Shown in pieces: positions 50,018-64,000 of a stretch of 64,000 nucleotides of DNA; position 1 is the first letter of the stretch, and each line of letters begins with the position of its first letter. The DNA comes from Pseudonocardia lacus (lineage in GTDB: Bacteria > Actinomycetota > Actinomycetes > Mycobacteriales > Pseudonocardiaceae), in the NCBI RefSeq assembly GCF_018531445.1, contig NZ_JAHDTH010000016.1, positions 1 through 64,000 of the forward strand, given 5' to 3'. The translations under genes and the position numbers were made by a program. The notes beneath the pieces were generated by a model. It ran no database searches, was not told where the DNA came from, and was given only the letters and a program-made list of their open reading frames with translations.

Positions 50018-51390
50018 CGCTGTCCTCGCAGGGTGTCGAGGGTCTGCCGGGCCGTCGCCGCGAGCAGCGGGGAGAAGTGCGGGTTGGTCGCCAGTGCGCC
50101 GTCGAGCACCGCGATGGCCTCGTCGGTGCGGCCGAGCCCGGCCAGCACGAGGCCGAGGTGGGCGTCGGTCGCCGCGTCCCGGCGGCCCAGCGAGGTGGCC
50201 CGCTCGGCGTAGGGGAGGGCCTCGGCGTCGAGCCCGGCGCGGTGCAGCGCCCAGGCCAGCGCGTCGGCGGTGAAGATGCTCGGGGCCTTCGCGTACTCGG
50301 CCCGGGCGAGCGCGACGGCCTCGGCCGGGTCGCCGTGGTCGGCGGCCAGCTGGGCCGCGGCCAGGCCGTCCCGCGCGCCGGACGCCTCGGCGAGGCGGTG
50401 CTGCTCGCCGAGCAGCCGGTACCGGGCCTGCGCCTCGGCCGTGCGCCCGGCCGACTCCAGCAGCTCGCCGTGCTCGAGCAGGTACTGCGGCAGCGGCACG
50501 CGCTGGGTCAGCACCCGGTAGCCCTCGATCGCCTCGTCCACCCGACCGGTCGCGGCCAGCACCTTCGCCCGGCCCTGCAGCAGGGCGGCGTGGTCGGGGT
50601 CGGCCAGCAGACCGCGCTCGTAGTGCCCGCCGGCCACCTCGACCCGCCCGTGGTTCCAGGCCAGCTCGCCCAGGTAGTACTCGCAGAAGGCGGTCTCGTC
50701 GGTGCTGGTCGCCGCGGCCAGCGCGCGTTCCAGTGCCGCGCGGGCGCCGTCGACGTCGCCGTGCAGCTCCAGCTCGTAGGAGGCGCGGGTGAAGGAGGCG
50801 ACGCCGGGACGCAGGTCCAGCATCCGCTGCACGGCGGCGGTCGCGGCGGCGGTGTCGCCCAGCTGCGTTGCGGCGTCGGCGAGCACGCCGTTGGCCTCGG
50901 CGCTGGCCGGGTTGACGGCCAGGGCCCGCTCCGCGTAGCCGCGGGCGGCGGCGAAGTCGTGCCGGGCGTTGGCCAGCGCGCCCAGCCCGACCAGGGCGGC
51001 GGCGTTGCCGTCGGGCGCCAGCTGCAGGGACCGCCCCAACGCGCCCTGCGCCTGCCCGTAGTAGGCGGGGTTGGCGGTGACCCTGGCCTGCTCGACGTAG
51101 GCGCCGCCGAGGCCGGCCCAGGTGGCCGCGTCGGTCGGCACCCGGCGCAGCCGGGCCTGGGACTGCTCGATCGTGGCGGAGAGCCGGTCGCTGACCGCGG
51201 ACGGCGTCGCAGCCGGGTCGGCGGCGCGGGTGGCCTGCAGGCCGGCGGCCAACGCGGTGGCCAGCAGGCCGGCGACGGCGACGGCCATCGCGACGAGGCG
51301 CAACCGGGAGCGGCGGGGAGCGGGCTCGGGGCGGTCGGCGGTGTCGGTGGGCTCGGGACCGGTCTCGACGGGCGGTGCGGCGGCGGCCAT
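50014..51390 (-). CDS. Membrane-anchored TPR-repeat protein
   Basis: 458 aa from ATG 51390. A short basic N-terminus and one membrane helix (LVAMAVAVAGLLATALAAGL, ~31-50) precede TPR-like repeats through the C-terminus, such as AALVGLGALANARHDFAAAR, GYAERALAVNPASAEANGVL and AHLGLVLAGLGRTDEAIAVL. The TPR part is probably extracytoplasmic if the helix is N-in. A scaffold for the DUF4331 and NicO products is inferred from the operon order. The stop overlaps the NicO start. Confidence 0.85.
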   Translation of the reverse strand: MAAAAPPVETGPEPTDTADRPEPAPRRSRLRLVAMAVAVAGLLATALAAGLQATRAADPAATPSAVSDRLSATIEQSQARLRRVPTDAATWAGLGGAYVEQARVTANPAYYGQAQGALGRSLQLAPDGNAAALVGLGALANARHDFAAARGYAERALAVNPASAEANGVLADAATQLGDTAAATAAVQRMLDLRPGVASFTRASYELELHGDVDGARAALERALAAATSTDETAFCEYYLGELAWNHGRVEVAGGHYERGLLADPDHAALLQGRAKVLAATGRVDEAIEGYRVLTQRVPLPQYLLEHGELLESAGRTAEAQARYRLLGEQHRLAEASGARDGLAAAQLAADHGDPAEAVALARAEYAKAPSIFTADALAWALHRAGLDAEALPYAERATSLGRRDAATDAHLGLVLAGLGRTDEAIAVLDGALATNPHFSPLLAATARQTLDTLRGQR

Positions 51391-51539
51391 GGCGGGTCCT
51401 GTCCGGGATGCGGTGCGGCGGTCGATGGGGAGGACCGGGAGGCGGGGCGGCACCACCGCCTCCCGGTCCGGTCGGGTGGGGGAGCGCGGCGGGGGCGATC
51501 GGCGTGGGACGCGATCGCCCCCGGCGCGGGGTCATCCGC

Positions 51540-53270
51540 TCAGCCGGTCATCGCCGGCGGAGCGCCCGGACCCTGCGGGCCGGCCGGTCCGACGCGCCCG
51601 CGGCGCCGCCGCAGCGCCAGCGCGACCACGGAACCGGCCAGGAGGGCACCGCCCAGGCTGCCGGCGGCCGCGACGGCCATCGGGCTCCAGTCGGTGCTGC
51701 TGGCGGCGGGGCGGACGGCGGCGTCCACCGTCGCGTTCTCCGACCCGCTGCCCGAACCGCTCTCGGACCCGCCGCTCGACGACGGGGTCACGCCCGAGCC
51801 GTCCTTGTCGTCGCCGCCAGCGGCGGCGCCGTCGGCGGCCGTCCGGTTGCCCGGCAGCGCGACGTACGGGAACTCGTCGAGGAACGCGACGTCGTTGGCG
51901 TCGACCTTGTCGCCCGCGGCCAGCGCGTCGACCAGCGTGCCGGTCTGCGCGGCCCCGGCCACGGCCTGCAGCGAGATGTCGATGATGTCGTCGCCGAGGC
52001 GGCGCCCGTTCGGGAAGCCCTGCAGGTCGCCGGCCAGCACGCCGAGGCGGTCGGGGTCCTTGGTCGGCTCGACGGAGGTGTTGAGCCGCAGCATCTCCGA
52101 GGGCTGGAACTGGGCCGGGTCGGCGTCGGCGTTGAGCACCTGGCTGTTCAGGTCGGCCTGGATCGGCGGCGCGGTGCCGTCGAGCGTCGGCGCGTTCTTC
52201 GCGATGCCGGTCAGGTAGATCTCGACCAGGTCGTTGCGCGGTGTGGCGGGCGCGGGCAGCCCGTAGATGCCCTCCAGCAGCCGCGCGACCTCGGGGTCGG
52301 TCACCCGGTCGACGACCTCGGGGATGGTCGCGTCCTTCACCGGCGCGAGGCCGTTGAACGCGTCCTTCAGCCCGGCCGGCAGCACGACCTCGTTGACCAG
52401 CGGGTTGCCCAGCCGGGAGACCTGCACGTCCGGGCCGGTCGGGGTGGCCATGCCGGGGGAGAGCTGCAGGGTCTTGCGCTCGGTCGCGCTCCAGGTGCCG
52501 ATCACCGGGTTGCGCTCCGGGTCGCCGTTGGCGGTGACCTCGGTCAGCGGCACCTGCAGCGCCCAGGTGTTGACGTTGGTCGCGGCCAGCGTGTCCTGCC
52601 CGGTCTCGGACAGGTCGCCGCCGTAGAGCAGGTCGAAGACCCGCAGGTCGGCGAAGAACGGGTCCTCGGCAGCGCCGACGTAGGTCTGGCCGCCCCCGGG
52701 CAGTTCGGTGATGGCCTGGTCGCGCAGCGGGGCGTAGTCCGGGATGGAGGCCGCGCCGACGTTCGACGGCGCCACCTGGCCCTCGCCGATCTTCTCCCAG
52801 CCGCCGCCCTTGCTCACCGAGACCGTGTAGTACTGCCGGAACAGCAGGTTCTCGTCGTCCAGGCTCTCGATCGGGCCGTTGTTGTAGAGGAACGTGTCGT
52901 TGCCGCGGCGGTCCTCGGTGCGGACCGTGAGCCGGTAGCTGACGTCGGACTTCGCGTTGCCGTCGTTGTCGATGTGGATGTCGTAGTTGGCGTCGGTGGC
53001 CCACGGGTAGAACGTCGGGCCGCCGTTGGGCTCCTGCAGGCCGAACCAGTTGGCCACGAAGGTGACCGTGTCGGGCTTGTCGGGGCTGACGAAGGCGTAG
53101 ACGTCGGTGTTGTCGACGGCCGGGTCGGCGGCGATGAGCGGGGCCTCGCGGTGGCTGGAGGCGCCGGCCGAGCCGGCCGAGAACGTCGCCAACGCCGTGG
53201 TGAGCGCGATGGTGCCCGCGGTCGCGAGCGCACCGGCCACCCGGCGGCGGGAGCGGTGTGAGCGAGACAT
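51540..53270 (-). CDS. DUF4331 surface protein
   Basis: 576 aa from ATG 53270 with GAAAGGGAC upstream. A signal peptide (basic SRSHRSRRR, hydrophobic ~15-35) ends before SSHREAPLIAADPAVDNTDV, the diagnostic start of DUF4331. FVANWFGLQEPNGGPTFYPW and YDIHIDNDGNAKSDVSYRLT continue the family, the latter with an acidic, calcium-loop-like run. A Gly/Ser-rich spacer (~505-535) leads to a C-terminal membrane helix (~545-565) and RRRRGR stop-transfer. So the protein is held at the outer face of the membrane. Function of DUF4331 is unknown to me. The TPR and NicO genes follow at 149 bp. Confidence 0.88.
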   Translation of the reverse strand: MSRSHRSRRRVAGALATAGTIALTTALATFSAGSAGASSHREAPLIAADPAVDNTDVYAFVSPDKPDTVTFVANWFGLQEPNGGPTFYPWATDANYDIHIDNDGNAKSDVSYRLTVRTEDRRGNDTFLYNNGPIESLDDENLLFRQYYTVSVSKGGGWEKIGEGQVAPSNVGAASIPDYAPLRDQAITELPGGGQTYVGAAEDPFFADLRVFDLLYGGDLSETGQDTLAATNVNTWALQVPLTEVTANGDPERNPVIGTWSATERKTLQLSPGMATPTGPDVQVSRLGNPLVNEVVLPAGLKDAFNGLAPVKDATIPEVVDRVTDPEVARLLEGIYGLPAPATPRNDLVEIYLTGIAKNAPTLDGTAPPIQADLNSQVLNADADPAQFQPSEMLRLNTSVEPTKDPDRLGVLAGDLQGFPNGRRLGDDIIDISLQAVAGAAQTGTLVDALAAGDKVDANDVAFLDEFPYVALPGNRTAADGAAAGGDDKDGSGVTPSSSGGSESGSGSGSENATVDAAVRPAASSTDWSPMAVAAAGSLGGALLAGSVVALALRRRRGRVGPAGPQGPGAPPAMTG

Positions 53271-53521
53271 CGTGTCCCTTTCGGAGGACAGCATGGGACG
53301 ACCGGGAAACGGGGGAACGTCTCCGGTGCATGGGCGTGCGGAACCGAGCCCGGAATACGAGTACGCCGGACGGAGTAATTGTGGGAATCGAACGGTCGTG
53401 CGTTCGCTGATGCACTGGCCCGAGCTGTGCGGGACCGAGCTGCACCAACACCTCCACTTTCGTGGGGCGTCGGGGAACGGTTCACCCGAATGTTTGATGC
53501 AACCGACTTGCAACAAGGCGG

Positions 53522-53595
53522 TGCCGGCGGCGGGATTCGAACCCGCACTGTCGGCGTTCTAAGCGCCGTCTCTCTGCCAGTTGGAGTACGCCGGC
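53522..53595 (-). tRNA. tRNA with UAG anticodon (Leu by anticodon) but short variable loop
   Basis: The minus strand folds as a complete tRNA: acceptor GCCGGCG (53595-53589) with CGCCGGC (53529-53523), D arm CTC/GAG with G18-G19, anticodon stem CGGCG/CGCCG, loop CTTAGAA, variable loop ACAGT, T arm GCGGG/CCCGC with loop TTCGAAT, discriminator A, no encoded CCA. Anticodon UAG would read CUA/CUN leucine codons. Bacterial tRNA-Leu is normally class II with a long variable arm; this one is class I, so identity is uncertain. It lies between the DUF4331 gene and bcp. Confidence 0.85.
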
Positions 53596-53644
53596 CGACC
53601 GTCCGGCCCGGCCGGGGCCGGACGGTGCGCGCTCAGGATACGGG

Positions 53645-54112
53645 TCAGACCTTCAGGTCCTTGCGCAGCTTGGCGACGTGCCCGGTGGCCCGCACGTTGT
53701 ACTGCGCCTCCTCGACGTTGCCGTCCGGGCCGACGACGAACGTCGACCGGATCACCCCGGTCACGGTCTTGCCGTACATCTTCTTCTCCCCGAACGCGCC
53801 CCACGCCGTCAGCACCTCGCGGTCGGGGTCGGACAGGAGCGGGAACGTCAGCCCCTCCTTGTCGCGGAACTTCGCCAGCTTCGCCGGCTTGTCCGGGGAC
53901 ACCCCCAGCACGGCCAGGCCGGCGTCGTTGAGCTCGGCGAGGTTGTCGCGGAAGTCGCAGGCCTGCTTCGTGCAGCCGGGCGTGCTGGCCGCCGGGTAGA
54001 AGTAGACGATGACGCGCCGGCCGCGGTAGTCCGACAGCGACACCGGCTTGTCGTCCGCGTCGTGCAGCGTGAAGTCCGGCGCGGGGTCGCCGGGGGCGAG
54101 TCGGGTGCTCAT
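53645..54112 (-). CDS. bcp: Thioredoxin-dependent thiol peroxidase (Bcp/PrxQ)
   Basis: 155 aa from ATG 54112. Opening STRLAPGDPAPDFTLHDADD, then VIVYFYPAASTPGCTKQACD, which contains the peroxidatic Cys and, five residues on, the resolving Cys of atypical 2-Cys PrxQ enzymes. IRSTFVVGPDGNVEEAQYNV closes the fold. The usual T-P-G-C-T motif is intact. It reduces hydroperoxides in the cytoplasm using thioredoxin or mycothiol-linked reductants. Located 49 bp downstream (in coordinate sense) of the tRNA. Confidence 0.94.
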   Translation of the reverse strand: MSTRLAPGDPAPDFTLHDADDKPVSLSDYRGRRVIVYFYPAASTPGCTKQACDFRDNLAELNDAGLAVLGVSPDKPAKLAKFRDKEGLTFPLLSDPDREVLTAWGAFGEKKMYGKTVTGVIRSTFVVGPDGNVEEAQYNVRATGHVAKLRKDLKV

Positions 54113-54218
54113 GGGGGTCGATCCTGGCAGACCCGGTCGGGTGCGGCGGCCCGACCGACGCCCCCGGCCCCGGCCGTCTACCGTGTGGAACCCCAACCCC
54201 GAACAACAGGAGGGCGTC

Positions 54219-54440
54219 GTGGCGCGCGACCCGGACACCATCCAGCGCGAGATCGAGAGCGCCAGGACCGCCCTGGCCGAGAGCCTGGACGAGCTCAGCG
54301 ACCGGGCCAACCCCAAGCACCTGGTGGAGTCGGGCAAGGAGAGCGTCCAGCAGAAGCTGAACGACCCGAAGATCCGCTACGCGCTGATCGGCGTGGGCGC
54401 CCTGGTCGGGCTGCTGGTCATCCGCAGCCTCTTCCGCTGA
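54219..54440 (+). CDS. DUF3618-family small membrane protein
   Basis: 73 aa from GTG 54219 with AACAGGAGGG upstream. ARDPDTIQREIESARTALAE is the DUF3618 signature, followed by a helical LDELSDRANPKHLVESGKES and a C-terminal membrane helix YALIGVGALVGLLVIRSLF. Such proteins accompany phage-holin-like or stress-related membrane proteins in actinobacteria; the role is unknown. Divergent from bcp, and a 15-bp perfect hairpin follows 12 bp after the stop. Confidence 0.85.
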   Translation: MARDPDTIQREIESARTALAESLDELSDRANPKHLVESGKESVQQKLNDPKIRYALIGVGALVGLLVIRSLFR

Positions 54441-54452
54441 CACCACCCGCTG

Positions 54453-54486
54453 TCGCCGTGCATACGTGAGGACGTATGCACGGCGA
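54453..54486 (+). terminator. Perfect 15-bp-stem hairpin
   Basis: Arms TCGCCGTGCATACGT (54453-54467) and ACGTATGCACGGCGA (54472-54486), loop GAGG. It is placed as terminator of the DUF3618 gene; its AT-bearing top (ATACGT/ACGTAT) is unusual for this window and could also be an operator. Confidence 0.65.
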
Positions 54487-54520
54487 CCCGGGACCGCCGG
54501 GGGATGCGCTCTGCGGCGGT

Positions 54521-54571
54521 GGGCGAGAGCGGCTCTCGTCCAATCTGGTTGGACGAAAGTCCCTCTCGTGC
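54521..54571. repeat. Imperfect inverted repeat, GAGAGnGGCTCTCG family
   Basis: Left arm 54521-54543 contains CGAGAGCGGCTCTCGTCCAA, nearly identical to the first 30-bp repeat at 40688. Right arm 54549-54571 is its imperfect reverse complement (TTGGACGAAAGTCCCTCTCG). It lies between the convergent DUF3618 and reductase genes. Confidence 0.65.
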
Positions 54572-54613
54572 GCGCGGCGCCGGAATCGCGCTCGTGGGCG
54601 AGGGCGCTGTTGC

Positions 54614-55834
54614 TCAGGCGAGGGTGGTGGCGTGGGCCAGCGTCTCCGCCCGGGTGGCGCCGGTGGTCAGCAGCTGCCGGTACCGCACGATGCGCCGGGC
54701 GGCGCCGAAGCCGGCCACCGCGACCAGCTGGTCGCCGGCGAGGTAGGCCGCGACGGTGCCCCGGATCGGGCCGCCGCTGAGGCCGTCGCCGTGCAGGGGG
54801 ACGACCTCGTCGGCGTGGTCCGGCCGCCCGAGCAGCTGGATCTTCAGGCCGAACTGGTCGGACCAGAAGTAGGGCACGGCGGGCGGCGGGGGGTCGGCGC
54901 CGAGGATGTCGCGGGCGACGACGGCGGCCTGGTCGCCCGCGCTGGTCCAGTGCTCGTGGCGGTGGTGGCCGCCGCGGGTCGGGTCCTCCCACAGCGCGAC
55001 GTCGCCGACGGCCCAGGTGGCGTCGAGGCCGGCGACGCGGCCGGTGGGGCCGCAGGTGAGGCCGCCGGCGACGGTGGCGCCGGAGCCGGCCACCCAGTCG
55101 AGGCGCGGTTCGCCGCCGATCCCGACCACCGCCGCGTCGGCGACGACCTCGGTGCCGTCGGCGAGCTGGACCGTCACGCCGGTGGGCTCGGCCGGGCCCG
55201 CGGTCATGGCGGTGATCTTGACCTCGGTGCGGAGGTCGACGCCGCCCTCGGTGAGCAGCCGGCCGGCGAGCGCGCCCAGCTCGGTGCCGAGCGCGCGGAC
55301 GGACGGGACCGGGAGCGCCTCCAGGACGGTGACGGCGATGCCGCGCTCGCGGGCGGTGCTGGCCACCTCGGCGCCGATGAACCCGGCCCCGACGACCAGC
55401 AGGGAGCCGATCCGGTCGAGGGTGGCGCGCAGGGCGAGCGAGTCGTCGAGGGTGCGCAGGGTGTGCACGCGGTCGGGCTGGCCGGGCAGGGTCCGCGCGG
55501 CGAGGCCGGTGGCGATGACCACGGCGTCGCCGTGCAGGGCCGAGCCGTCGGACAGCTCGACGACGCCCGGGCGCAGGCCGACCGCAGTGAGGCCCAGGTG
55601 CGTGCGCACGCCCAGCTCGGTGAGCGCGTCGACGGTGCTGAGCACGATCCGGTCGGGTTCCCACGCGCCGCTGAGCACCTGCTTGGACAGCGGGGGGCGG
55701 TCGTAGGGCGGGTGGGTCTCGGAGCCCACCAGGCTGATGCGGCCCTGGAAGCCGGCGGCCCGCAGCTGCTCGGCGGTGCGCAACCCGCCCAGCCCGGCCC
55801 CGATCACCAGCACGTGCTCCGGCTGCGTGCTCAT
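54614..55834 (-). CDS. FAD-dependent ferredoxin/rubredoxin reductase-like oxidoreductase
   Basis: 406 aa from ATG 55834 (GTG 55840 is an alternative two codons earlier). FAD motif VLVIGAGLGGLRTAEQLRAA at the N-terminus, PPYDRPPLSKQVLSG typical of dioxygenase ferredoxin reductases, NAD motif LLVVGAGFIGAEVASTARER, second FAD motif TWAVGDVALWEDP. The C-terminal domain with YFWSDQFGLKIQLLGRP completes the family. It would pass electrons from NAD(P)H to a ferredoxin. A link to the BoxA-less BoxB system 40 kb away is possible but only a guess. Confidence 0.9.
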   Translation of the reverse strand: MSTQPEHVLVIGAGLGGLRTAEQLRAAGFQGRISLVGSETHPPYDRPPLSKQVLSGAWEPDRIVLSTVDALTELGVRTHLGLTAVGLRPGVVELSDGSALHGDAVVIATGLAARTLPGQPDRVHTLRTLDDSLALRATLDRIGSLLVVGAGFIGAEVASTARERGIAVTVLEALPVPSVRALGTELGALAGRLLTEGGVDLRTEVKITAMTAGPAEPTGVTVQLADGTEVVADAAVVGIGGEPRLDWVAGSGATVAGGLTCGPTGRVAGLDATWAVGDVALWEDPTRGGHHRHEHWTSAGDQAAVVARDILGADPPPPAVPYFWSDQFGLKIQLLGRPDHADEVVPLHGDGLSGGPIRGTVAAYLAGDQLVAVAGFGAARRIVRYRQLLTTGATRAETLAHATTLA

Positions 55835-55877
55835 CTGCACCCCGACTCCGTCATCCGACCGACAGCTCCCCGCGTGC

Positions 55878-56657
55878 TCAGCCCGCCCGGGTCTCGGGGT
55901 CCAGGCGGTTGCGCATCCGGTCGAGGGTCTGCGCGAGCAGCCGGGAGACGTGCATCTGCGAGATGCCGACCTCCTCGGCGATCTGCGTCTGGGTCATGTT
56001 CCCGAAGAACCGCAGCAGCACGATCGTGCGCTCGCGCTCGGGCAGCTCGGCCAGCACCGGGCGCAGGGCCTGGCGGAAGTCGACGCGGTCGAGCTCGGCG
56101 TCGGCCTCGCCAACCAGTTCGCCGACCGTGGCGCTGCCCTGCTCGGAGGACAGCATCTCGTCCAGCGAGGAGCTGCGGTACGCCTCGGAGGCCTCCAGGC
56201 CCTCCAGCACCTCGGCCACCGGGATGCCGAGCTTGTCGGCGATCTCGCTCGGGCGCGGCGCGCGTCCCAGGTTCTGCGACAGCTCCGAGACCGTGCTGTT
56301 GATCGAGACGTGCAGGTCCTTCAGTCGCCGCGGCACCCGCATCGACCAGCCCAGGTCGCGGAAGTGCCGGCGCACCTCGCCGCTGATCGTGGGCACCGCG
56401 AAGGAGAAGAACTCGTGGCCGCGCTCGGGGGAGAACCGGTCGATGGCGTTGATCAGCCCGACCGTGGCGACCTGGACGAGGTCGTCGAGCGGCTCACCAC
56501 GGTTGGAGAAGCGCCGCGCGATGTGCTGGGCCACCGGCAGGTAGCCGCGCACGAGCTGTTCGCGCAGCGGCTCCCGACCGGGGTCGTCCGCGGGGAGCGC
56601 CGCGTAGCGCTCCAGCAGGGGGACGAGGTGGCCGTACTCGGGATCTGTCCTGGTCAC
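55878..56657 (-). CDS. sigF: SigF/SigB-type alternative sigma factor
   Basis: 259 aa from GTG 56657, overlapping the RsbW stop (GTGA). Region 2 is LVRGYLPVAQHIARRFSNRG, LDDLVQVATVGLINAIDRFS and FAVPTISGEVRRHFRDLGW. Region 3 is SRRL-like RVPRRLKDLHVSINSTVSEL. Region 4 is LRPVLAELPERERTIVLLRF and MTQTQIAEEVGISQMHVSRL. This is the group-3 SigF/SigB/SigG branch controlling general stress or development. It is held inactive by the RsbW-type protein encoded just upstream. Confidence 0.93.
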   Translation of the reverse strand: MTRTDPEYGHLVPLLERYAALPADDPGREPLREQLVRGYLPVAQHIARRFSNRGEPLDDLVQVATVGLINAIDRFSPERGHEFFSFAVPTISGEVRRHFRDLGWSMRVPRRLKDLHVSINSTVSELSQNLGRAPRPSEIADKLGIPVAEVLEGLEASEAYRSSSLDEMLSSEQGSATVGELVGEADAELDRVDFRQALRPVLAELPERERTIVLLRFFGNMTQTQIAEEVGISQMHVSRLLAQTLDRMRNRLDPETRAG

Positions 56658-57091
56658 CGGGGTAGGTCGCCGGCGTGCTTGGTCAGCGTGATGCCGACCG
56701 TGGAGCCGGTGCCGTCCTCGTTCCCGCCGTGCTCGAGGGCGACGTCGTCGGCCAGGGTCTGCAGCACCCGCCAGCCGAAGGTGTCGGTCGAGACCTTCGT
56801 GTCGGCGCTGTCGGTCTGCACGACCGCGTGCACCTCGATGCGGTCCGCGCGGACCAGGAAGGTGCACAGCAGGCTCGACTCGGCGGCGGCGACGTCGACG
56901 AGGGTGGCGCAGGCTTCGTCGACGGCCATGCGCAGGTCGGAGATGGCGTCGAGGTCGAAGTCGGCCCTCGCGGCCAGGTCGGAGGCGACGGCGCGGATCG
57001 TCGGGATCAGCGCGGGGCTCGCTGACGTCCTGAGCTCGACGCTGGATGCCCCGTCCAGGTCGGGCACGGAGGGGGAGTCCAGGTCGGACAC
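56654..57091 (-). CDS. rsbW: Anti-sigma factor / serine kinase RsbW
   Basis: 145 aa, GTG start. HATPase_c fold: RAVASDLAARADFDLDAISD then LRMAVDEACATLVDVAAAES (the N-box, with Glu and Asp), and GTGSTVGITLTKHAGD at the C-terminus. RsbW-type proteins bind SigF and phosphorylate the STAS antagonist. The central segment SSLLCTFLVRADRIEVHAV is as in mycobacterial RsbW/UsfX. The order rsbW-sigF with overlapping codons ensures stoichiometric synthesis. Confidence 0.9.
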   Translation of the reverse strand: MSDLDSPSVPDLDGASSVELRTSASPALIPTIRAVASDLAARADFDLDAISDLRMAVDEACATLVDVAAAESSLLCTFLVRADRIEVHAVVQTDSADTKVSTDTFGWRVLQTLADDVALEHGGNEDGTGSTVGITLTKHAGDLPR

Positions 57092-57180
57092 GCTGGCGTT
57101 CTCCTTCGGCTCGGGGTTGTCAGCCTAGTGGGGTGGGGCGGGTCGCGCGGGGGCGGGCTCGAAGTCCGCGCCGCGCGCGG

Positions 57181-57570
57181 TCAACCGCGCAGCGCGGTGG
57201 TGATGTCGGAGTGCAGGGTGAAGAGCTGCTCCGAGCCGGTGATCTCGATGGGGCGCCGCACCGCACGCGCGGTCACCACCAGGTGCAGCGCGCGGTCGCT
57301 GTCCTCGGCGCGGTGCGCGGCCTGGATGAGCGCGGCCAGCCCGCTGGAGGCCAGGAACGTCACCCCGGTCAGGTCGACGACGAGCAGCGGATGGGGCCCG
57401 GCGACGAGCTCGCGCAGCGCCGTGTCCAGCTCGGGCGCGGTGAGCGTGTCCAGCTCGCCGGTGACCGCCAGCAGCGCGGCGTCCGGGCGGGGGTGGGAGA
57501 CCTCGGTGCCGAGCGCTCCGGCCGTCCGGGGCGGGCTCGCGTCGGGGCCCTGCGTGGCGGGCTCGGCCAT
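57181..57570 (-). CDS. rsbV: STAS-domain anti-sigma factor antagonist (RsbV-like)
   Basis: 129 aa from ATG 57570. The STAS motif VVDLTGVTFLASSGLAAL contains the phosphorylatable Ser. N-terminal 25 residues are disordered. In the unphosphorylated form it should bind RsbW and free SigF. It lies 89 bp upstream of rsbW on the same strand, and the PP2C phosphatase that would dephosphorylate it is divergently encoded 192 bp away. A SigF-like promoter is seen 67 bp upstream of the start. Confidence 0.88.
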   Translation of the reverse strand: MAEPATQGPDASPPRTAGALGTEVSHPRPDAALLAVTGELDTLTAPELDTALRELVAGPHPLLVVDLTGVTFLASSGLAALIQAAHRAEDSDRALHLVVTARAVRRPIEITGSEQLFTLHSDITTALRG

Positions 57571-57636
57571 CGATCTTGCCTCCGGCGCAGTCAGGTCGGC
57601 TCGGGCTGCGACGGTACCCGGGTACGACCCGGCCGG

Positions 57637-57662
57637 GTACTCCGGTCAGCCCGGACTGGAAC
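57637..57662 (-). promoter_or_regulatory. Candidate SigF-dependent promoter upstream of rsbV
   Basis: On the minus strand, GTTC (57662-57659) and GAGTAC (57642-57637) are separated by 16 bp. SigF promoters in actinobacteria look like GTTT/GTTC-N15-17-GGGTAT. One mismatch in the -10 makes this tentative. It would give autoregulation of rsbV-rsbW-sigF. Confidence 0.35.
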
Positions 57663-57762
57663 GGCTGCTCTCTGAACCGTGTCGGCGTCCGATCCTACCG
57701 ACGAGTTCGCCTCCCGCGGTCGTGGGGGCGCGGCGGCGTCGAACGAGCCCTAGGCTGATGGG

Positions 57763-59994
57763 GTGGTGGACGGCGGACCCGTCGCGGCCCCGGTGGACGG
57801 GCCCGGCCTCGCGGAGATGGTGCTGGACAACGCGGCCCGCACCGCAGGCTCCGATCTGCCCCGGGTGCTGCACGGGGCGCCGGCCGCGGTGCTGGTGATC
57901 GACCTCGACAGCCGCAGCGTCGTCTACGCCAACGCCGCCGCGATGGAGCTCGCCGGCGACCGCGTCCGGCTGCCGGTCGACATCGACGACTGGGGCGACG
58001 CGGCGGGCCTGACCGACCTGGGCGGCCGGCGGATGAGCCAGACGCGCTCGCCGCTCTCGCTGGTGGCCCGCGGCGTGCCGGTGGCGGGCGAGCCGGTGGC
58101 CGTGCGCGACGCCGCCCGCCGCGGGTCCACGGCTACGAGTGAGCAGCGCGAGGCCAGCGAGGGCAGGCTGCTGTGGGCGACCGGTTTCGCGCTGTCCGGG
58201 GTGGCCGACGACCCCCCCGCCGTGGGCGCGGCGAGCCTGTCGCGGCTGGCGCTGGTGGTGTTCCTGCAGCTCGCCGGGACCGAGCACGGCGACCGCCGGC
58301 ACCTGGAGGTGCTGCGCGACCGGGCCGTCGTGGCGACCGACATGTCGTTCACCATCACCGACCCCCGCCAGGACGACGACCCCCTCATCTGGGTCAACCC
58401 GTCGTTCACCAAGCTCACCGGCTACACCCACGACGACGTCGTGGGCCGCAACTGCCGGCTGCTGCAGGGCCCGAACACCGACCGCGGCACGGTCCTGCGG
58501 ATCGCCGACGCGCTGCGCCGCCGCGAGCCGATCACCGAGGTGCTGCTGAACTACCGCAAGGACGGCACCGCCTACTGGAACCAGGTCTCGATCACTCCGG
58601 TGTTCGACGGCAACGGCCGGCTGGTGAACTTCGTCGGCGTGCAGAGCGACGTCACCGAGCGGGTGACCGTCGAGCAGGAGCGGCGGGCCGCGCTGGCCGA
58701 GGCCGAGCAGGCGCGCAGCCAGCTGCGCCTGCTCGCCGAGGCCACCACCCAGATGACCGGGGCCCTCGACGTCTCCGACGCGTGCGCCCGGCTGGCCCAC
58801 GCGCTGGTGCCCCAGCTGGCCGACCTGTGCGCCGTCGACGTGCTGGAGCGCCCCGGCGCCGGGGGCGCGCAGCGGCTGGCGGTGGCCGGGCGGGAGAACG
58901 GCGACGAGTCGGCGCTGCGCGAGCTGGGTCAGCTGGGCGAGCCGCCCGGCGCGGACACCGGCGCCGACCCGGTGCTGCTGGCGGAGCTGCCCGAGCGCGG
59001 CGCCGACCGCTACCCGGACGACCCGGTCGCCGCGGCCGCCTACGACCGGCTGCGGCTCAAGTCGGTGATGGTGGTGCCGATCCGGGCCCGCGGCCGGGTG
59101 CTGGGCGCGCTCACCCTGGCCACCCAGCAGCCCTACGGCCGCCGGTACTCCGCGAGCGACCTGCACCTGGCCGCCGACATCGCCGGGCGGGCCGGGCTGA
59201 CCGTGGACAACGCCCGCCTCTACGAGGTGGAGCACGCGGCCGCGGTCACGCTGCAGCGCAGCCTGCTGCCGGTGGTGCCGCGGGTCGAGGGCATGCGCCT
59301 GGCCGCCCGCTACCTCGTCGGCGTGGACGGCAACCAGGTCGGCGGCGACTGGTACGACGCGCTCAACCTGCCCGACGGGGCGGTCGGCATCGCGGTCGGC
59401 GACGTCGTCGGCCACGACCTGCGGGCCGCGGCGGCGATGGGCCAGCTGCGCGGTGTGCTGCGCTCCTACGCCTGGGACGGCGCCCCGCCGGGGCTGGTCC
59501 TGGACCGCTGCGACCAGCTGGTGCAGGGCCTGGAGATGGCGGCCATGGCCACCGCCGTCTACGCGCGCATCGAGCCGGCCGACGAGGACGGCGTGCGGCT
59601 GCTGCGCTACGCGAACGCGGGCCACCCCACCCCGTTGTTGCTGCTGCCCGACGGGAAGCTCACCCGCCTCGACGGGCACCGCTCGCCGATGATCGGCGCC
59701 GTGCCGCGGCTGGGCACGCGCGCCGGTGTCGGCCGCGAGGACGCGGCGGTGCCGATGGCCCCGGGCTCGACGCTGTTCCTCTACACCGACGGCCTCACCG
59801 ACGCGGTGGGCGAGGACGCCGACGAGCGGACCGAGCTGCTGGAGCGCACCGTGGCCGGCATGTCGGCGGGCGCCGACGCCGAGGACGTCGTGGAGCAGGT
59901 GCTGCGGGTGTGCACGCCGGCCGAGCTGCGCGACGACGTGGCGCTGCTGGCGGTGCGCCTGGACGACCGTCCGGCCGGACGATCGGACGGATGA
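57763..59994 (+). CDS. LOV-GAF-PP2C phosphatase, candidate blue-light activator of SigF
   Basis: 743 aa, GTG start. Residues ~25-175: degenerate PAS-like domain. Residues ~180-300: a LOV domain with GRNCRLLQG (228-236), the photoactive Cys at 231, FMN contacts Q235, N263 and N273 (NYRKDGTAYWNQ) and Q294 (FVGVQSD). Then a helical linker (~300-325), a GAF domain (~325-485) and a SpoIIE-type PP2C (~500-735) with GGDWYDAL (D529, D532), VGDVVGHD (D547) and FLYTDGLTDA. Such proteins dephosphorylate STAS antagonists in partner switching. Light control is inferred from the intact LOV site. It is divergent from rsbV-rsbW-sigF. Confidence 0.9.
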   Translation: MVDGGPVAAPVDGPGLAEMVLDNAARTAGSDLPRVLHGAPAAVLVIDLDSRSVVYANAAAMELAGDRVRLPVDIDDWGDAAGLTDLGGRRMSQTRSPLSLVARGVPVAGEPVAVRDAARRGSTATSEQREASEGRLLWATGFALSGVADDPPAVGAASLSRLALVVFLQLAGTEHGDRRHLEVLRDRAVVATDMSFTITDPRQDDDPLIWVNPSFTKLTGYTHDDVVGRNCRLLQGPNTDRGTVLRIADALRRREPITEVLLNYRKDGTAYWNQVSITPVFDGNGRLVNFVGVQSDVTERVTVEQERRAALAEAEQARSQLRLLAEATTQMTGALDVSDACARLAHALVPQLADLCAVDVLERPGAGGAQRLAVAGRENGDESALRELGQLGEPPGADTGADPVLLAELPERGADRYPDDPVAAAAYDRLRLKSVMVVPIRARGRVLGALTLATQQPYGRRYSASDLHLAADIAGRAGLTVDNARLYEVEHAAAVTLQRSLLPVVPRVEGMRLAARYLVGVDGNQVGGDWYDALNLPDGAVGIAVGDVVGHDLRAAAAMGQLRGVLRSYAWDGAPPGLVLDRCDQLVQGLEMAAMATAVYARIEPADEDGVRLLRYANAGHPTPLLLLPDGKLTRLDGHRSPMIGAVPRLGTRAGVGREDAAVPMAPGSTLFLYTDGLTDAVGEDADERTELLERTVAGMSAGADAEDVVEQVLRVCTPAELRDDVALLAVRLDDRPAGRSDG

Positions 59995-60120
59995 TCGATT
60001 CCGGCGATCGGCCGTCCACCTGAACGGGGGGTGAACGTCCGGCCACGCCCAGCTGGCCGGGTCCGCTCGGCCGTACGACATCTACCGGATGTCGCTACAC
60101 GGTGGTGACCTGCGCCGATG

Positions 60121-60194
60121 CCGTGAGCGGCGTTCCACGGTGGACGGACTGTACGACCGAATGGAGCCCACCGTGAGCTGATCGCCGCTCACGG
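60121..60194. other. Nested hairpins in the 59995-60321 intergenic region
   Basis: Perfect 12-bp arms CCGTGAGCGGCG (60121-60132) and CGCCGCTCACGG (60183-60194) enclose a second pair ACGGTGG (60137-60143) / CCACCGT (60168-60174). It may be the terminator of the LOV phosphatase gene, though it begins 126 bp past the stop. The rest of the 327-bp gap shows no gene. Confidence 0.45.
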
Positions 60195-60321
60195 ATGGTC
60201 CCCGCCCGCTCGGCGTTCGAGGGCCCCGGTTGGGGATCACCATCGTCTCCAGCCGGTTCACTGTTACATGGAGCCGAAACGGCCAGGGGGCCCGGCTTGC
60301 GCGTTGTGGGGGACGTTGACG

Positions 60322-60996
60322 ATGTCCGCAGTACCGACCGAGTTCACCGCCGACACCCCGGACCGCCGGGAGCCGGGTCGCGGCCCGACCGGTGATCCGG
60401 CGAGCGGCCGGGTCCGGATGCCCGTGCCGGTGCCGGCCACGGTGCCGGTCCCGCCGCCTCCGGTCGCCACCGCAGACGGCCGGCGCCTCGTGGCCGTGGC
60501 GTTCAGCGCCGAGGAGCTGCTCCGGCCCGACTCCGACCTGGCCCGGATCCTGCGCACGGTCCCGGTCGCCGACCTGCTGCTGGCGACCGACGAGCCGCGG
60601 CTCACGCCCGTGCGCATCCCGGTGCCGCCGCCCGTCCACGTCGACGACCTGCCGCCGGTCGAGCTCGACCAGCTCGCCGTCGCCGAGCAGGAGTTGGAGA
60701 TCCCCACCTCGGTGGTGATCGACGACCTGGACGTGCCGGGGCTGCGCGTGCACCGGCTCGACCTGGCCCTGCCGCTGCACGCGGGCGCGGAGGACGACCT
60801 GGTCGCCGCGCTCAGCGAGTTGGTCGGGTTCGACCCGGAGCCGGGAGTGGTGTGCCTGGCGCCCGCCGCGGACGACGACGCCGGCGGGGCCGCGGCCGTC
60901 AGCCGGGCGGCGCAGCGGGTGGCGCGGGTCTACGGGCTGCCGCTGCTGCGGTTCCGCTCGCGCGATCTGGCCGCGACGGCGGCGGTCACCGGCTGA
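60322..60996 (+). CDS. Hypothetical Pro/Val/Asp-rich protein
   Basis: 224 aa from ATG 60322; an upstream in-frame ATG at 60268 would add 18 residues. The N-terminal 75 residues are low-complexity (RMPVPVPATVPVPPPPVATA). The rest, with RLVAVAFSAEELLRPDSDLA, VAEQELEIPTSVVIDDLDVP and SRAAQRVARVYGLPLLRFRS, has alternating strand and helix character but no recognised domain. A competing long frame exists on the other strand; this one is preferred for its third-position G/C bias and sensible C-terminus. It lies between the LOV phosphatase and a WhiB gene. Confidence 0.5.
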   Translation: MSAVPTEFTADTPDRREPGRGPTGDPASGRVRMPVPVPATVPVPPPPVATADGRRLVAVAFSAEELLRPDSDLARILRTVPVADLLLATDEPRLTPVRIPVPPPVHVDDLPPVELDQLAVAEQELEIPTSVVIDDLDVPGLRVHRLDLALPLHAGAEDDLVAALSELVGFDPEPGVVCLAPAADDDAGGAAAVSRAAQRVARVYGLPLLRFRSRDLAATAAVTG

Positions 60997-61023
60997 CACC
61001 CCCCCGCGTCGGTACGGTCCGGC

Positions 61024-61317
61024 TCAGCTGGCCATCGGGACGCCGCGCTGCTCCAGGATGACGCGGCGCTCGGCCTCGGCCAGCCCGCCCCAGACGCCGA
61101 AGGGCTCGCGGGTCTGCAGGGCGAACTCGCGGCACATGTCCATCACCGGGCAGCGCCGGCAGACCTCCTTGGCCTGCGCGGTGCGGCGCGCGCGTGACGG
61201 GTTGCGCTCACCGTCGGGGTGGAAGAAGACGGCGCTGTCCATGCCGCGGCACGCGCCGAGACGCTGCCACTGCCACGCGTGATCCATCGGCCCGGGAAGC
61301 CGCGAAACGTCGCTCAT
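61024..61317 (-). CDS. WhiB-family iron-sulfur regulator (WhiB3/WhiD-like)
   Basis: 97 aa from ATG 61317 (GTG 61323 is an alternative). Numbering from the GTG start, the four Fe-S cysteines are C25, C55, C58 and C64 (CxxC and C-x5-C spacing), followed by GVWGG. WQWQRLGACRGMDSAVFFHP and DGERNPSRARR place it with WhiB3/WhiD rather than WhiB1 or WhiB4. These proteins bind region 4 of the principal sigma factor and respond to oxygen, NO or redox state. Neighbours are STAS and SigF-linked regulators. Confidence 0.9.
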   Translation of the reverse strand: MSDVSRLPGPMDHAWQWQRLGACRGMDSAVFFHPDGERNPSRARRTAQAKEVCRRCPVMDMCREFALQTREPFGVWGGLAEAERRVILEQRGVPMAS

Positions 61318-61449
61318 CGTCACCCCTAGTTCTTTCGTGCCCGGTCGAGCGGGCGGTCGAGGTGCTGATTCCCAGGGGGTCGGAGCGCCAAACTAGGAGC
61401 CGTCCGGCAATCACGCCGACCGGTCGACCCGGCCCCGCCGTGCGGACAG

Positions 61450-61498
61450 GACGACGCCCCCACCGGTGCGCCACTGGCGCGGTGGTGGGGGCGTCGTC
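61450..61498 (-). terminator. Hairpin terminator of the second STAS gene
   Basis: Perfect 15-bp arms GACGACGCCCCCACC (61450-61464) and GGTGGGGGCGTCGTC (61484-61498); after three unpaired positions the stem continues with GCGCC/GGCGC. It lies 95 bp after the minus-strand STAS gene. Confidence 0.72.
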
Positions 61499-61592
61499 AC
61501 TGGTCAGAGCGGGGGTGGTGCGGGGAGTGAACCCGCCGGTCGGCCCGGCACGGCGAGTAGCCCGAACGCCGCGCTGTGACGTACGTCACATA

Positions 61593-62003
61593 TCAGTCGG
61601 CGGACAGGGCCTGCTCGAGGCTCTCGTGCACGTTGAACAGCGGCACCAGGCCGGCGATCGTCAGCGGCCGCAGCACGCGCCGGGCCGTGCAGACGAGCCG
61701 CAGGTCGACCCCGGAGGTCTGGGCGGCCTCCCGGACCTCGATGAGCACGGCCAGGCCGCTGGTGCCCAGGAACGTGACGCCGTCCAGGTCGAGGACGACG
61801 GTGCCGACGCCTTCGGTCTCGAACTGCTCCAGCACTGCGGCCCGCAACTGCGGGGAGGTGAGCATGTCGACCTCGCCGCCGACCTCGAGCACGACCTTCC
61901 CCGGCGACGGGGTGCTGGTCGCGAGCGTGATCTGGTCGTCGACGTCGCTCCCGCGCCGGATCGACGACGGCTCGGGCTGCGGGGTCTCGCGGGTCTCGGA
62001 CAT
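61593..62003 (-). CDS. STAS-domain anti-sigma factor antagonist
   Basis: 136 aa from ATG 62003. KVVLEVGGEVDMLTSPQLRA and VVLDLDGVTFLGTSGLAVLI hold the STAS fold with the phospho-acceptor Ser in GTSG. It is a second RsbV-like protein, 4 kb from the SigF module, with a different N-terminus (SETRETPQPEPSSIRRGSDV). It might be an extra substrate of the same RsbW or of another kinase. No partner kinase is adjacent. Confidence 0.88.
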   Translation of the reverse strand: MSETRETPQPEPSSIRRGSDVDDQITLATSTPSPGKVVLEVGGEVDMLTSPQLRAAVLEQFETEGVGTVVLDLDGVTFLGTSGLAVLIEVREAAQTSGVDLRLVCTARRVLRPLTIAGLVPLFNVHESLEQALSAD

Positions 62004-62231
62004 CGACGCACACGGTAGGGCCTGGCCCACGGCCCTGCCACTCCAGGCCCCGGCTGTCGCCGAGAGGGGTGCACGGGCGCCCGACGGTGCCGCCATCCGG
62101 CGTACCGACCTGGGCCGACGGTGCGGAGTCGCCGCTCGTCGGACGGAGCAGCGCGCCTACGGCGACGGGGCGTCCCTGGTCGGCGACTGCGTCCCGGCCC
62201 ACTTCACCGCCCCGTGAGGACGAGTTGTCGA

Positions 62232-62627
62232 TCACTCGGGGGCGACGCGGGCGACCAGCGCCGACCGGCGGGCCATCTCGCCCCGGTACCACTCCAGCTT
62301 CTCCCGCAGCCGGGCCTGCTGCCCGCGCAGCTCGTCGATCGCCGCCCGGACCGCCACCTCGTGCTCCTCCAGCAGCGCCACCCGCTCGGACAGCGTCGAC
62401 TCGTCGAGCGAGAGCTCGCCGTAGCGGCGCAGCTGGGCGATGGGCATGCCGGTGTCGCGCAGGCAGCGCAGGAAGCTGAGCCGGCCCAGGTCGTCCTCGC
62501 TGTAGCGGCGCCGCCCGCCGACCGTGCGGGCGACCGGGGACAGGATGCCCTCGCGCTCGTAGTAGCGGAGCGTGTCGATGCTGAACCCGGACAGCCGGGC
62601 GGCCTCGGCCGGTGAGTACGTCGTCAC
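62232..62627 (-). CDS. MerR-family transcriptional regulator
   Basis: 131 aa from GTG 62627. The HTH is TYSPAEAARLSGFSIDTLRY then YEREGILSPVARTVGGRRRY, the second helical unit LSFLRCLRDTGMPIAQLRRY, followed by a coiled-coil dimer helix (ALLEEHEVAVRAAIDELRGQ). No cysteine metal motif is seen at the C-terminus, so it probably senses an organic or redox signal. Divergent from an aldo/keto reductase whose promoter has MerR geometry. Confidence 0.9.
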   Translation of the reverse strand: MTTYSPAEAARLSGFSIDTLRYYEREGILSPVARTVGGRRRYSEDDLGRLSFLRCLRDTGMPIAQLRRYGELSLDESTLSERVALLEEHEVAVRAAIDELRGQQARLREKLEWYRGEMARRSALVARVAPE

Positions 62628-62687
62628 GGCCCGATAGTGCCGGACCGGGGCTCCGGAGTGGAGTGGCCGCGTCACGCCGGCGGGGCC

Positions 62688-62800
62688 GTCCTCGCAGCGC
62701 CGGGCGGGTGTCGCGGCACCTGTTGGTCGTCTTCGCAGGGTCACCGTGGTCTTCGCAGGGTCCACAGCACCTGCGAAGACCATGGCGCCCCTGCGAAGAC
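62688..62800. repeat. Cluster of GTCTTCGCAG-family palindromic repeats
   Basis: Forward copies at 62688-62697 (GTCCTCGCAG), 62729-62738 and 62749-62758 (GTCTTCGCAG); reverse copies CTGCGAAGAC at 62771-62780 and 62791-62800. Adjacent same-orientation perfect copies are exactly 20 bp apart. It fills much of the 272-bp MerR/reductase spacer. Confidence 0.75.
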
Positions 62801-62861
62801 CACCTGACCCCGGCCCGGGACCGAACGGGAAGCCCGGAGGCCTGAACGCCGAAGGCGGCGC

Positions 62862-62892
62862 TTGACCTGGAGCGCGCTCCAGATCGCAGGGT
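62862..62892 (+). promoter_or_regulatory. MerR-type promoter for the aldo/keto reductase gene
   Basis: -35 TTGACC (62862-62867), perfect 16-bp palindrome CTGGAGCGCGCTCCAG (62867-62882), and a weak -10 CAGGGT (62887-62892) at a 19-bp spacer. Long spacers with a palindrome inside are diagnostic of MerR-activated promoters. The start codon at 62900 lies where transcription should begin, suggesting a leaderless mRNA. Confidence 0.7.
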
Positions 62893-62899
62893 TGGGTAC

Positions 62900-63838
62900 A
62901 TGACGAATTCACCGCTGGTGCTCGGCGCCATGATGTTCGGGACGACGATCGACGAGGAGACCTCCTTCGCCCTGCTCGACCGCTTCGTCGAATCCGGCGG
63001 CGTCTGGATCGACACCGCCGACTGCTACTCGTTCTGGGCCAGCGAATCGGGCCACGGCGGCGACAGCGAGGCCGTGCTGGGGCGCTGGCTGGCAGCACGC
63101 CCCGGCGTCCGCGAGCGGGTGCGCATCGCCACCAAGGCCGGGGCCGAGCCGCGGTGGCCGGGTAGCTGGCCGGCGCAGCGGGCGGGGCTGTCGCGGCGGG
63201 CGATCCGCGACGCCTTCGCCGGCAGCTTGCGCAGGCTCGGCGTCGACCACGTCGACATGCTCTGGTTGCACCAGGAGGACCGCACCGTGCCGATCGAGCG
63301 GACGGTCGACGCGGTGGCGGAGCTGGTGGCCGACGGCAGCGTGGGTCGCGTCGGCGCCTCCAACCACCCCGCGTGGCGGGTCGAGCGGGCCCGCCGGCAC
63401 GCGCTCGACACCGGCACGGTCCCGATCGACGCGTTCCAGCTCAGCGCGACCTACCTGCGGCCCCGGCCGGGGACGCAGCCGCCCGGCAACGTGCACCCGT
63501 TCGGCGTGCTGAGCGACGAGCAGCGCGACTACGCCGTCGAGCACGGCATCGAGGTCTGGGCGTACACACCGCTGCTGAGCGGGGCGTACGACAACCCCGA
63601 CAAGGAGCTCCCGCAGGTCTACGACCACCCCGCCACCACCGCCCGGCTGGCCGAGCTGGACAAGGCCGCCGCCGACCTCGGCGTACCGAGGGGGCAGGTC
63701 GTGCTGGCCTGGCTGCTCGCCCACGGCATCCGCCCGATCCTCGGCGGCAGCAAGCTCCACCAGCTCGACAGCGCACTGGCCGGGGTGGGCCTGGAGCTGC
63801 CGGCGGAGCTGCTCGCCCGGCTCGACGCGCCGGTGTGA
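62900..63838 (+). CDS. Aldo/keto reductase
   Basis: 312 aa from ATG 62900. TIM-barrel AKR: MMFGTTIDEETSFALLDRFV then SGGVWIDTADCYSFWASESG (catalytic Asp and Tyr), IATKAGAEPRWPG (Lys), LGVDHVDMLWLHQEDRTVPI (His), and a C-terminal NADPH site VLAWLLAHGIRPILGGSKLH. It reduces carbonyls in the cytoplasm. Controlled by the divergent MerR protein. The substrate is unknown; sugars, methylglyoxal or toxic aldehydes are possible. Confidence 0.93.
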   Translation: MTNSPLVLGAMMFGTTIDEETSFALLDRFVESGGVWIDTADCYSFWASESGHGGDSEAVLGRWLAARPGVRERVRIATKAGAEPRWPGSWPAQRAGLSRRAIRDAFAGSLRRLGVDHVDMLWLHQEDRTVPIERTVDAVAELVADGSVGRVGASNHPAWRVERARRHALDTGTVPIDAFQLSATYLRPRPGTQPPGNVHPFGVLSDEQRDYAVEHGIEVWAYTPLLSGAYDNPDKELPQVYDHPATTARLAELDKAAADLGVPRGQVVLAWLLAHGIRPILGGSKLHQLDSALAGVGLELPAELLARLDAPV

Positions 63839-63868
63839 GGCCCCCGGCGCGACCGCTAGCGTGGACGC

Positions 63869-64000
63869 GTGGACGGGGGGAAGACGCGCGACTGGGTGAT
63901 CGAGGCGATCCGACGGGTCGAGGCCGACGCCACCCGCTCCGCCGACACCCACCTGCACGCCTACCCGCTGCCCGAGGAGTGGGGCGTGCAGGTCTACCTG
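63869..64000 (+). CDS. PLP-dependent cysteine desulfhydrase-like protein (Cds1-type), 5' part
   Basis: 44 residues are visible from GTG 63869 before the window ends: [20 protein letters not shown] and [19 protein letters not shown]. This N-terminus matches the actinobacterial Cds1 family, fold-type II PLP enzymes related to cysteine synthase that release sulfide from cysteine. The PLP lysine and the rest lie outside. GTG 63861 is out of frame. Confidence 0.75.

Follow-up and report, generated by a model that had tools for sequence, protein, structure and literature searches.

How might blue light reach the stress sigma factor of an actinobacterium? The question is raised by a locus near the end of a 64,000-nucleotide stretch of the 8.06-Mb genome of Pseudonocardia lacus (contig NZ_JAHDTH010000016.1, positions 1 to 64,000, the whole of which we call the window), where the gene of a LOV-GAF-PP2C protein stands divergent from the three-gene series rsbV, rsbW and sigF. 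The original prediction, made from the letters of the window, had read these four genes as a blue-light-gated SigF partner-switching module, and the divergence it described was borne out, the phosphatase open reading frame (ORF; 57763-59994) lying on the forward strand and the three others on the reverse strand. In passages of the papers cited here by their PubMed Central numbers, SigB/SigF-type switches are described as receiving their signals from stressosomes, energy sensors or two-component relays (PMC12143880, PMC4844311, PMC7693655, PMC10950880). The present locus points to a way for light to reach stress genes in few steps, and on balance we favour, with some reserve, the reading that the LOV-GAF-PP2C protein is a one-component blue-light input to the Pseudonocardia SigF partner switch. 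The argument draws on what can be read from the letters: which domains are there, the key residues they keep, the order of the genes, the joint occurrence with RsbV, a promoter motif 5′ of whiB3 and the loss of the N-box Asn from RsbW. If the reading is true, a phosphatase carrying its own photoreceptor would make a very short link between blue light and a stress sigma factor, and light would enter the actinobacterial general stress response through neither a stressosome nor a two-component relay.

The route we propose starts with flavin mononucleotide in the LOV domain, which under blue light would form an adduct with Cys231. The change would pass through the helix of residues 298-332, the GAF domain and the helix of residues 464-501 into the PP2C domain, altering its activity, probably upwards; the phosphatase would take the phosphate off Ser75 of RsbV, and dephosphorylated RsbV would bind RsbW and free SigF, the neighbouring whiB3 probably being one of the SigF targets. 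The kinase working against the phosphatase would probably be a different HATPase_c_2 protein whose gene lies outside the locus, on the model of Mycobacterium smegmatis. In this scheme we infer flavin binding, the sign of the light effect, the substrate, the kinase and the sigma factor that reads the whiB3 motif. The account as a whole, in which the LOV-GAF-PP2C protein sets RsbV phosphorylation against a kinase encoded elsewhere, light releases SigF, whiB3 is a target and the arrangement is spread through Pseudonocardia, is put forward tentatively, as one that could well fail in some part. Were it true, it would provide a natural light-controlled phosphatase that is simple to test in vitro and a defined light response for Pseudonocardia, tied to a WhiB3-type regulator.

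The sensor domain is, as judged from its sequence, a true LOV blue-light domain and a predicted photoreceptor, not an ordinary PAS domain, because LOV-type models score about twice as high on it as the general model, the leading Protein Data Bank (PDB) matches are LOV proteins and its key residues are invariant. On the PAS part, the NCBIfam models PRK13559 (which we take to be a LOV family), YtvA and blue-light histidine kinase gave 142.5, 141.7 and 129.7 bits, against 64.7 bits for the general PAS S-box model on the same segment, so that the profile comparison proposed with the original prediction (130-142 versus 64.7 bits) came out for LOV. All three models missed their full-length cut-offs, as expected for a different architecture; the protein accordingly falls outside the YtvA family (141.7 bits from the LOV part only, cut-off 250), and Pfam finds no STAS domain in it. 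The 60 PDB matches listed (of 159) all align to the LOV part, and those that lead are LOV photoreceptors or constructs derived from them. The five residues on which the claim of an intact LOV domain had been based, Cys231, presumably the photoactive cysteine, and Q235, N263, N273 and Q294, which we assume to contact the flavin, are all present at these positions and are identical in all 43 LOV copies compared, of which 39 come from Pseudonocardia (38 genomes, one of them contributing two loci) and four from other genera. General PAS models match as well (Pfam PAS at residues 204-299; PAS_9, 5.4e-23), which would suit an ordinary PAS domain, but against the scores, the PDB leaders and the residue set that reading is hardly credible and was ruled out. 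The LOV segment has a single match in the host genome.

The AlphaFold2 model and Pfam together give the domain order N-terminal PAS-like region, LOV, helix, GAF, helix and PP2C. The model was built from ten sequences, with a mean predicted local distance difference test score of 73 (below 50 in parts of the LOV region) and a predicted template-modelling score of 0.46, and its relative domain placement is not reliable. A GAF domain between LOV and PP2C had been claimed and was recovered by Pfam (GAF at 398-480, 1.2e-7; SpoIIE at 537-733, 8.5e-42, 143.7 bits versus a cut-off of 25), and the N-terminal region shows a weak PAS_8 match at residues 35-72 that fails on its own. The phosphatase domain looks intact, with all four PP2C motifs in place (VGGDWYD at 526, VGDVVGHD at 545, TDGLTD at 675 and RDDVALL at 723). 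Its nearest solved relative by sequence (4.1e-19) and by fold (Foldseek, 3.6e-13, to the RsbU-RsbW part) is Rv1364c of Mycobacterium tuberculosis (PDB 3ke6), a PAS-PP2C-kinase-STAS protein suggested in a passage of PMC7693655 to regulate SigF; there a single chain holds all the parts and its PAS domain is an ordinary one, whereas here the genes are separate and the domain is of the LOV type. A sensor domain, a helical linker and a PP2C domain that dephosphorylates RsbV make up the plan of RsbP and RsbU according to PMC12143880 (in part), which describes the linker mechanism for RsbU and proposes it for RsbP. The same plan is predicted here, and the long modelled helices ahead of the phosphatase would fit such a mechanism; in contrast, RsbP, with its PAS domain, depends on RsbQ, and RsbU on RsbT, whereas the present protein carries its own sensor domains in the chain, LOV, GAF and the N-terminal PAS-like domain.

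These two additional putative sensory domains also allow a different reading, in which an intact LOV domain serves chiefly to sense redox state or darkness, or is overridden by the GAF and N-terminal domains, and SigF in the cell is not under light control. Light-independent effects of YtvA and LovK-LovR are on record in PMC4844311, as far as its passages used here go. A purely light-independent role would not need Cys231, yet the cysteine is kept in 43/43 copies, and we consider this reading quite unlikely.

Returning to the light-gated switch, the original prediction had placed a complete cascade in one 4-kb locus, with RsbW as the kinase. The sensor-phosphatase, the antagonist and the sigma factor are there; a recognisable kinase is not. 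Local RsbW matches solved mycobacterial RsbW over nearly the whole protein (8ih8, 3.8e-18; 8jzt, 2.3e-17) and does not reach the NCBIfam RsbW equivalog cut-offs, and in the alignment of its N-box (EACATLV) with that of Bacillus RsbW (EACTNAV) the place of the Asn is taken by Thr. This Thr recurs in 61/61 RsbW genomes of our genus sample (62 Pseudonocardia genomes), and DxGxG is absent in 60/61. The same division is described in passages on M. smegmatis, where RsbW1 is an anti-sigma factor without kinase activity, RsbW2 is the RsfB kinase (PMC7693655) and the receiver-PP2C protein RsfR takes the phosphate off (PMC10950880). Since local RsbW lacks the N-box Asn, like RsbW1, the kinase is probably to be sought, by analogy with M. 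smegmatis, among the HATPase_c_2 proteins encoded outside the locus, and the cascade in the locus would be incomplete; a complete cascade with its kinase inside the locus was rejected on the strength of the Thr, and the claim that RsbW is the kinase is not supported. Because the kinase Asn is missing from RsbW in every one of the 61 genomes, the sequences suggest that bacteria other than mycobacteria also divide the anti-sigma and kinase functions between separate proteins, as was shown for M. smegmatis. In the host genome, HATPase_c_2 has 65 matches, and the N-box was examined in 30 of these loci; the counts rest on one pattern, which caught 12 (11 keep the Asn, the RsbW of the window does not) and missed 18. 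The two switches would share a kinase-less RsbW beside SigF and, by prediction here, a STAS antagonist whose state is set by Ser phosphorylation and by a PP2C phosphatase (PMC7693655, PMC10950880, both in part), but they differ in their phosphatases: a histidine kinase controls RsfR, which carries a receiver domain and is encoded away from sigF, whereas the phosphatase here has its own LOV domain and adjoins rsbV-rsbW-sigF.

RsbV, the proposed substrate, passes the anti-sigma antagonist model TIGR00377 (65.8 bits, cut-off 53.45); its Ser75 aligns with the Ser of RsfB, and all 47 copies listed of 48 have the phospho-acceptor Ser. Across the genus sample, the LOV segment was matched in 38/62 genomes, RsbW in 61/62, and RsbV in 48 with E 5.6e-23 or better, beside rsbW in the loci examined; weaker RsbV-type matches, starting at 2.2e-21 among the matches listed, were taken as a separate group. 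The 62nd genome (G006, 72% complete) has no match for LOV, RsbW or RsbV. RsbV accompanies LOV in 38/38 genomes, versus 10 of the 23 LOV-less genomes with RsbW (13 are without RsbV), which gives 1.7e-7 in a Fisher test over 61 genomes that ignores kinship. When RsbV loss was simulated on a sigF+rsbW tree that was rooted at its midpoint and had RsbV present at the root, none of the RsbV-less tips fell among the LOV genomes in 44 of the 18,453 runs that ended with 10-16 such tips (0.0024). The co-occurrence and the tree simulation lend moderate support to a dependence of the LOV phosphatase on RsbV, and the co-occurrence gives the same moderate support to RsbV as its putative substrate.

The phosphatase might instead act mainly on the second STAS protein of the window, or on STAS proteins elsewhere, and feed another switch. 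Several STAS proteins per genome match RsbV, and where rsbV-rsbW-sigF have become separated, the second STAS gene, whiB3 and the gene of a 242-residue protein stay beside the LOV gene. However, the second STAS gene is also kept in LOV-less genomes (with whiB3 in 19/23 loci) and therefore, unlike RsbV, shows no dependence on LOV; its acceptor place, moreover, is a Thr (Thr112; TSG in 20/56 copies by pattern, with four more seen), though Thr could still be used. We regard this alternative as unlikely. In a LOV-less species (genome G021, locus L130), another PP2C match, of 32% identity, lies beside the second STAS gene in the sigF locus.

RsbV stays the preferred substrate in what follows, and gene order bears on the same link. 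In 28/38 LOV genomes the LOV gene and rsbV stand near each other in divergent orientation, with 667-927 bases between the LOV domain and the RsbV match. Outside the genus, a scan of one genome per species, from which the best 80 loci were taken, found the LOV Cys motif together with a PP2C match in 36, of which 35 belong to Actinomycetospora, Modestobacter, Blastococcus, Klenkia, Kineococcus, Cellulomonas and other genera; the LOV-PP2C proteins of other actinobacteria are 38-59% identical to ours and likewise keep the Cys motif. No RsbW or SigF profile match was found in the flanks (up to 7 kb) of these 35 loci, with profiles built from Pseudonocardia copies and some contigs ending early, so that distant or far genes may be missed. 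Profile results for RsbW, SigF and STAS cover 40 listed loci, the 35 among them, and in these the RsbW and SigF profiles matched nothing and the STAS profile only Pseudonocardia sp. MH-G8 and L177 (without LOV motif); four same-order loci (L053-L056) have LOV and PP2C but no RsbV, RsbW or SigF match. At this sampling the link of LOV-PP2C to sigF is a Pseudonocardia feature. The 35 loci would suit the reading that the neighbourhood is incidental, the LOV phosphatase having been placed by chance beside sigF in an ancestor without any link; that the arrangement is kept in 28/38 genomes across the genus and that LOV never occurs without RsbV speak against it, and we think it very unlikely.

What would be new in a light input to SigF is the wiring, which appears simple, not the parts. 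LOV architectures were reportedly surveyed in 2016. A 2014 review (PMC4844311, in part) counts proteins that combine LOV with a SpoIIE phosphatase among the typical classes, and the same source bears out the remark in the original prediction that Bacillus has LOV-linked stress control, YtvA acting through the stressosome. In Bacillus subtilis, too, a LOV protein feeds a SigB-type stress sigma factor, and the LOV part here matches the YtvA model; YtvA, however, is a LOV-STAS protein working via the stressosome, whereas here LOV is fused to a phosphatase. Among open-licence PubMed Central papers we found none on a LOV-PP2C protein acting on SigF.

On the output side, the sigma factor passes the SigB/SigF/SigG model TIGR02980 (287.3 bits, cut-off 234.35) and scores 339.1 on the narrower SigF model PRK07122, below its 372. 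A passage of PMC4694148 gives the SigF-dependent promoter as a GTTT-N14-19-GGGTA-like site and lists GTTT-N15/16-GGGAA sites for genes lowered in a M. smegmatis sigF mutant, katA included; M. smegmatis sigF is also needed there for the carotenoid pigment of light-grown colonies. In the window, GTTTG-N15-GGGAA ends 45 bases 5′ of the whiB3 GTG. The pattern G[TG]TT-N13-18-GGG[TA][AT] occurs within 300 bases 5′ of whiB3 in 51/51 loci, mostly 65-160 bases upstream among the 40 loci listed, versus 4/406 for eight other genes and 9/300 for shuffled stretches, and the exact pair GTTT-N17-GGAA is found in 48/51. This SigF-type motif 5′ of the neighbouring whiB3 is a new observation from sequence, and whiB3 is probably among the SigF targets. 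LOV-less genomes carry the motif too, so that what it marks would be no more than a sigma-factor output and could not be ascribed to light alone. An exact genome-wide search of the host gave seven matches, versus three for a control spacing, with mixed genes downstream, and no SigF regulon is claimed from it.

Several observations weigh against the light-gated switch and its proposed output. LOV has no match in 24/62 genomes, so SigF works without it. In 9/38 genomes with LOV, its gene and rsbV stand apart, and adjacency is therefore common but not needed: on the same contig, RsbW and LOV lie about 14-25 kb apart in G016, G008, G034, G022, G011 and G076 and about 5 kb apart in G079, and in G035 and G004 separate contigs carry LOV and rsbV, the contig with the LOV gene extending about 5 kb upstream of it (in G078, 1/38, a contig end falls between the two). 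Independent pairs of LOV versus RsbV, although they never run in the opposite direction, are not significant (median p 0.25 and 0.5), RsbV having only four changes on the tree and LOV at least 11. The host genome has 15 SpoIIE-type PP2C matches, at least three further SigF-like factors (three at 53-67% identity) and several STAS proteins, which makes cross-talk likely. The whiB3 motif may mislead, since in M. smegmatis whiB1 and whiB4 have SigF consensus sites without changed expression in the sigF mutant (PMC4694148, in part); SigB homologues of Streptomyces cross-recognise promoters, according to a passage of PMC8346170. As for autoregulation of SigF, the whiB3 pattern was found within 300 bases in 0/45 cases for rsbV and 0/42 for the LOV gene; a looser pattern over 700 bases 5′ of rsbV gave 1/48, at L130, probably a whiB site because whiB lies directly 5′ of rsbV there.

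Features of the locus and its neighbourhood (positions in the window; +, forward strand; -, reverse strand)
Feature	Position	Strand	Evidence or detail
sigF, SigB/SigF/SigG-family sigma factor, 259 residues from GTG	55878..56657	-	TIGR02980; GTGA overlap
rsbW, anti-sigma factor, 145 residues, HATPase_c_2, N-box Asn replaced by Thr	56654..57091	-	Pfam, alignment
rsbV, STAS anti-sigma antagonist, 129 residues, Ser75	57181..57570	-	Pfam, NCBIfam, alignment
Intergenic region between the divergent genes	57571..57762		TAGGCT at 57751-57756
LOV-GAF-PP2C protein, 743 residues, GTG start	57763..59994	+	ORF, Pfam, NCBIfam, PDB matches
PAS-like N-terminal region, about residues 40-170	57880..58272	+	AlphaFold2 model; weak PAS_8 match
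Predicted LOV domain, residues 186-300, Cys231	58318..58662	+	NCBIfam scores, PDB matches, invariant residues
Long helix 298-332, LOV to GAF	58654..58758	+	AlphaFold2 model
GAF domain, about residues 337-478	58771..59196	+	Pfam GAF 1.2e-7 at 398-480; AlphaFold2 model
Long helix 464-501 into PP2C	59152..59265	+	AlphaFold2 model
PP2C (SpoIIE-type) phosphatase domain, about residues 511-733	59293..59961	+	Pfam SpoIIE 8.5e-42; PDB 3ke6
242-residue protein, 3′ of the LOV gene	60268..60996	+	Conserved in locus across genus
whiB3-like gene	61024..61323	-	Pfam Whib; best PDB match WhiB3 8.9e-34
SigB/SigF-type promoter motif GTTTG-N15-GGGAA 5′ of whiB3	61369..61393	-	Pattern search
Second STAS protein, 167 residues, Thr112 at the phospho-acceptor place	61593..62096	-	Pfam, NCBIfam, alignment

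Within the locus, sigF probably starts at the GTG at 56657, a GTGA being common to the rsbW stop and the sigF start. The TAGGCT lies just 5′ of the GTG of the LOV gene, and judged by eye against the consensus it would be a housekeeping -10. Neither Pfam nor NCBIfam matched the 242-residue protein at 0.001. A related ORF stands directly 5′ of the LOV-PP2C gene in three Actinomycetospora genomes (L139, L140, L164), which points to a possible link with the LOV protein; that the gene of the 242-residue protein is also retained by LOV-less Pseudonocardia counts against such a link. Plasmid records gave 500 matches to the LOV-GAF-PP2C protein, none of which covers 80% of it in one place. Among the genomes with a separated LOV gene, the interval was annotated with Pfam in G008 (L111, 5.9-14.7 kb), where it holds dihydroxy-acid dehydratase, altronate dehydratase, PdxA, sugar-kinase-like and nickel-insertion families and one protein without a Pfam match. 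Rfam over 50000-64000 gave one transfer RNA gene (53522-53595, -), directly upstream of a DUF4331 protein (51540-53516, -) and touching the start of its longest ORF.

A GATTGAT-N-GGGTAGCA-like element, absent from this window, occurs 5′ of rsbW in some loci, whether or not rsbV is present, and its right half may be a housekeeping -10; in several RsbV-less genomes (L093, L097, L099, L100, L101, L103, L105) a conserved GATTGAT-N-CGGGTAGCA element lies upstream of rsbW, and some RsbV-bearing loci, this window not among them, have it too. On contig C465 of the host genome (L225 and L229, about 27.1-29.3 kb), one of the seven exact motifs of the whiB3 type stands 5′ of a HATPase_c_2 protein that keeps the N-box Asn, and a SpoIIE PP2C match lies farther on in the same stretch; the two may be a kinase with its phosphatase, controlled by a sigma factor of the same type.

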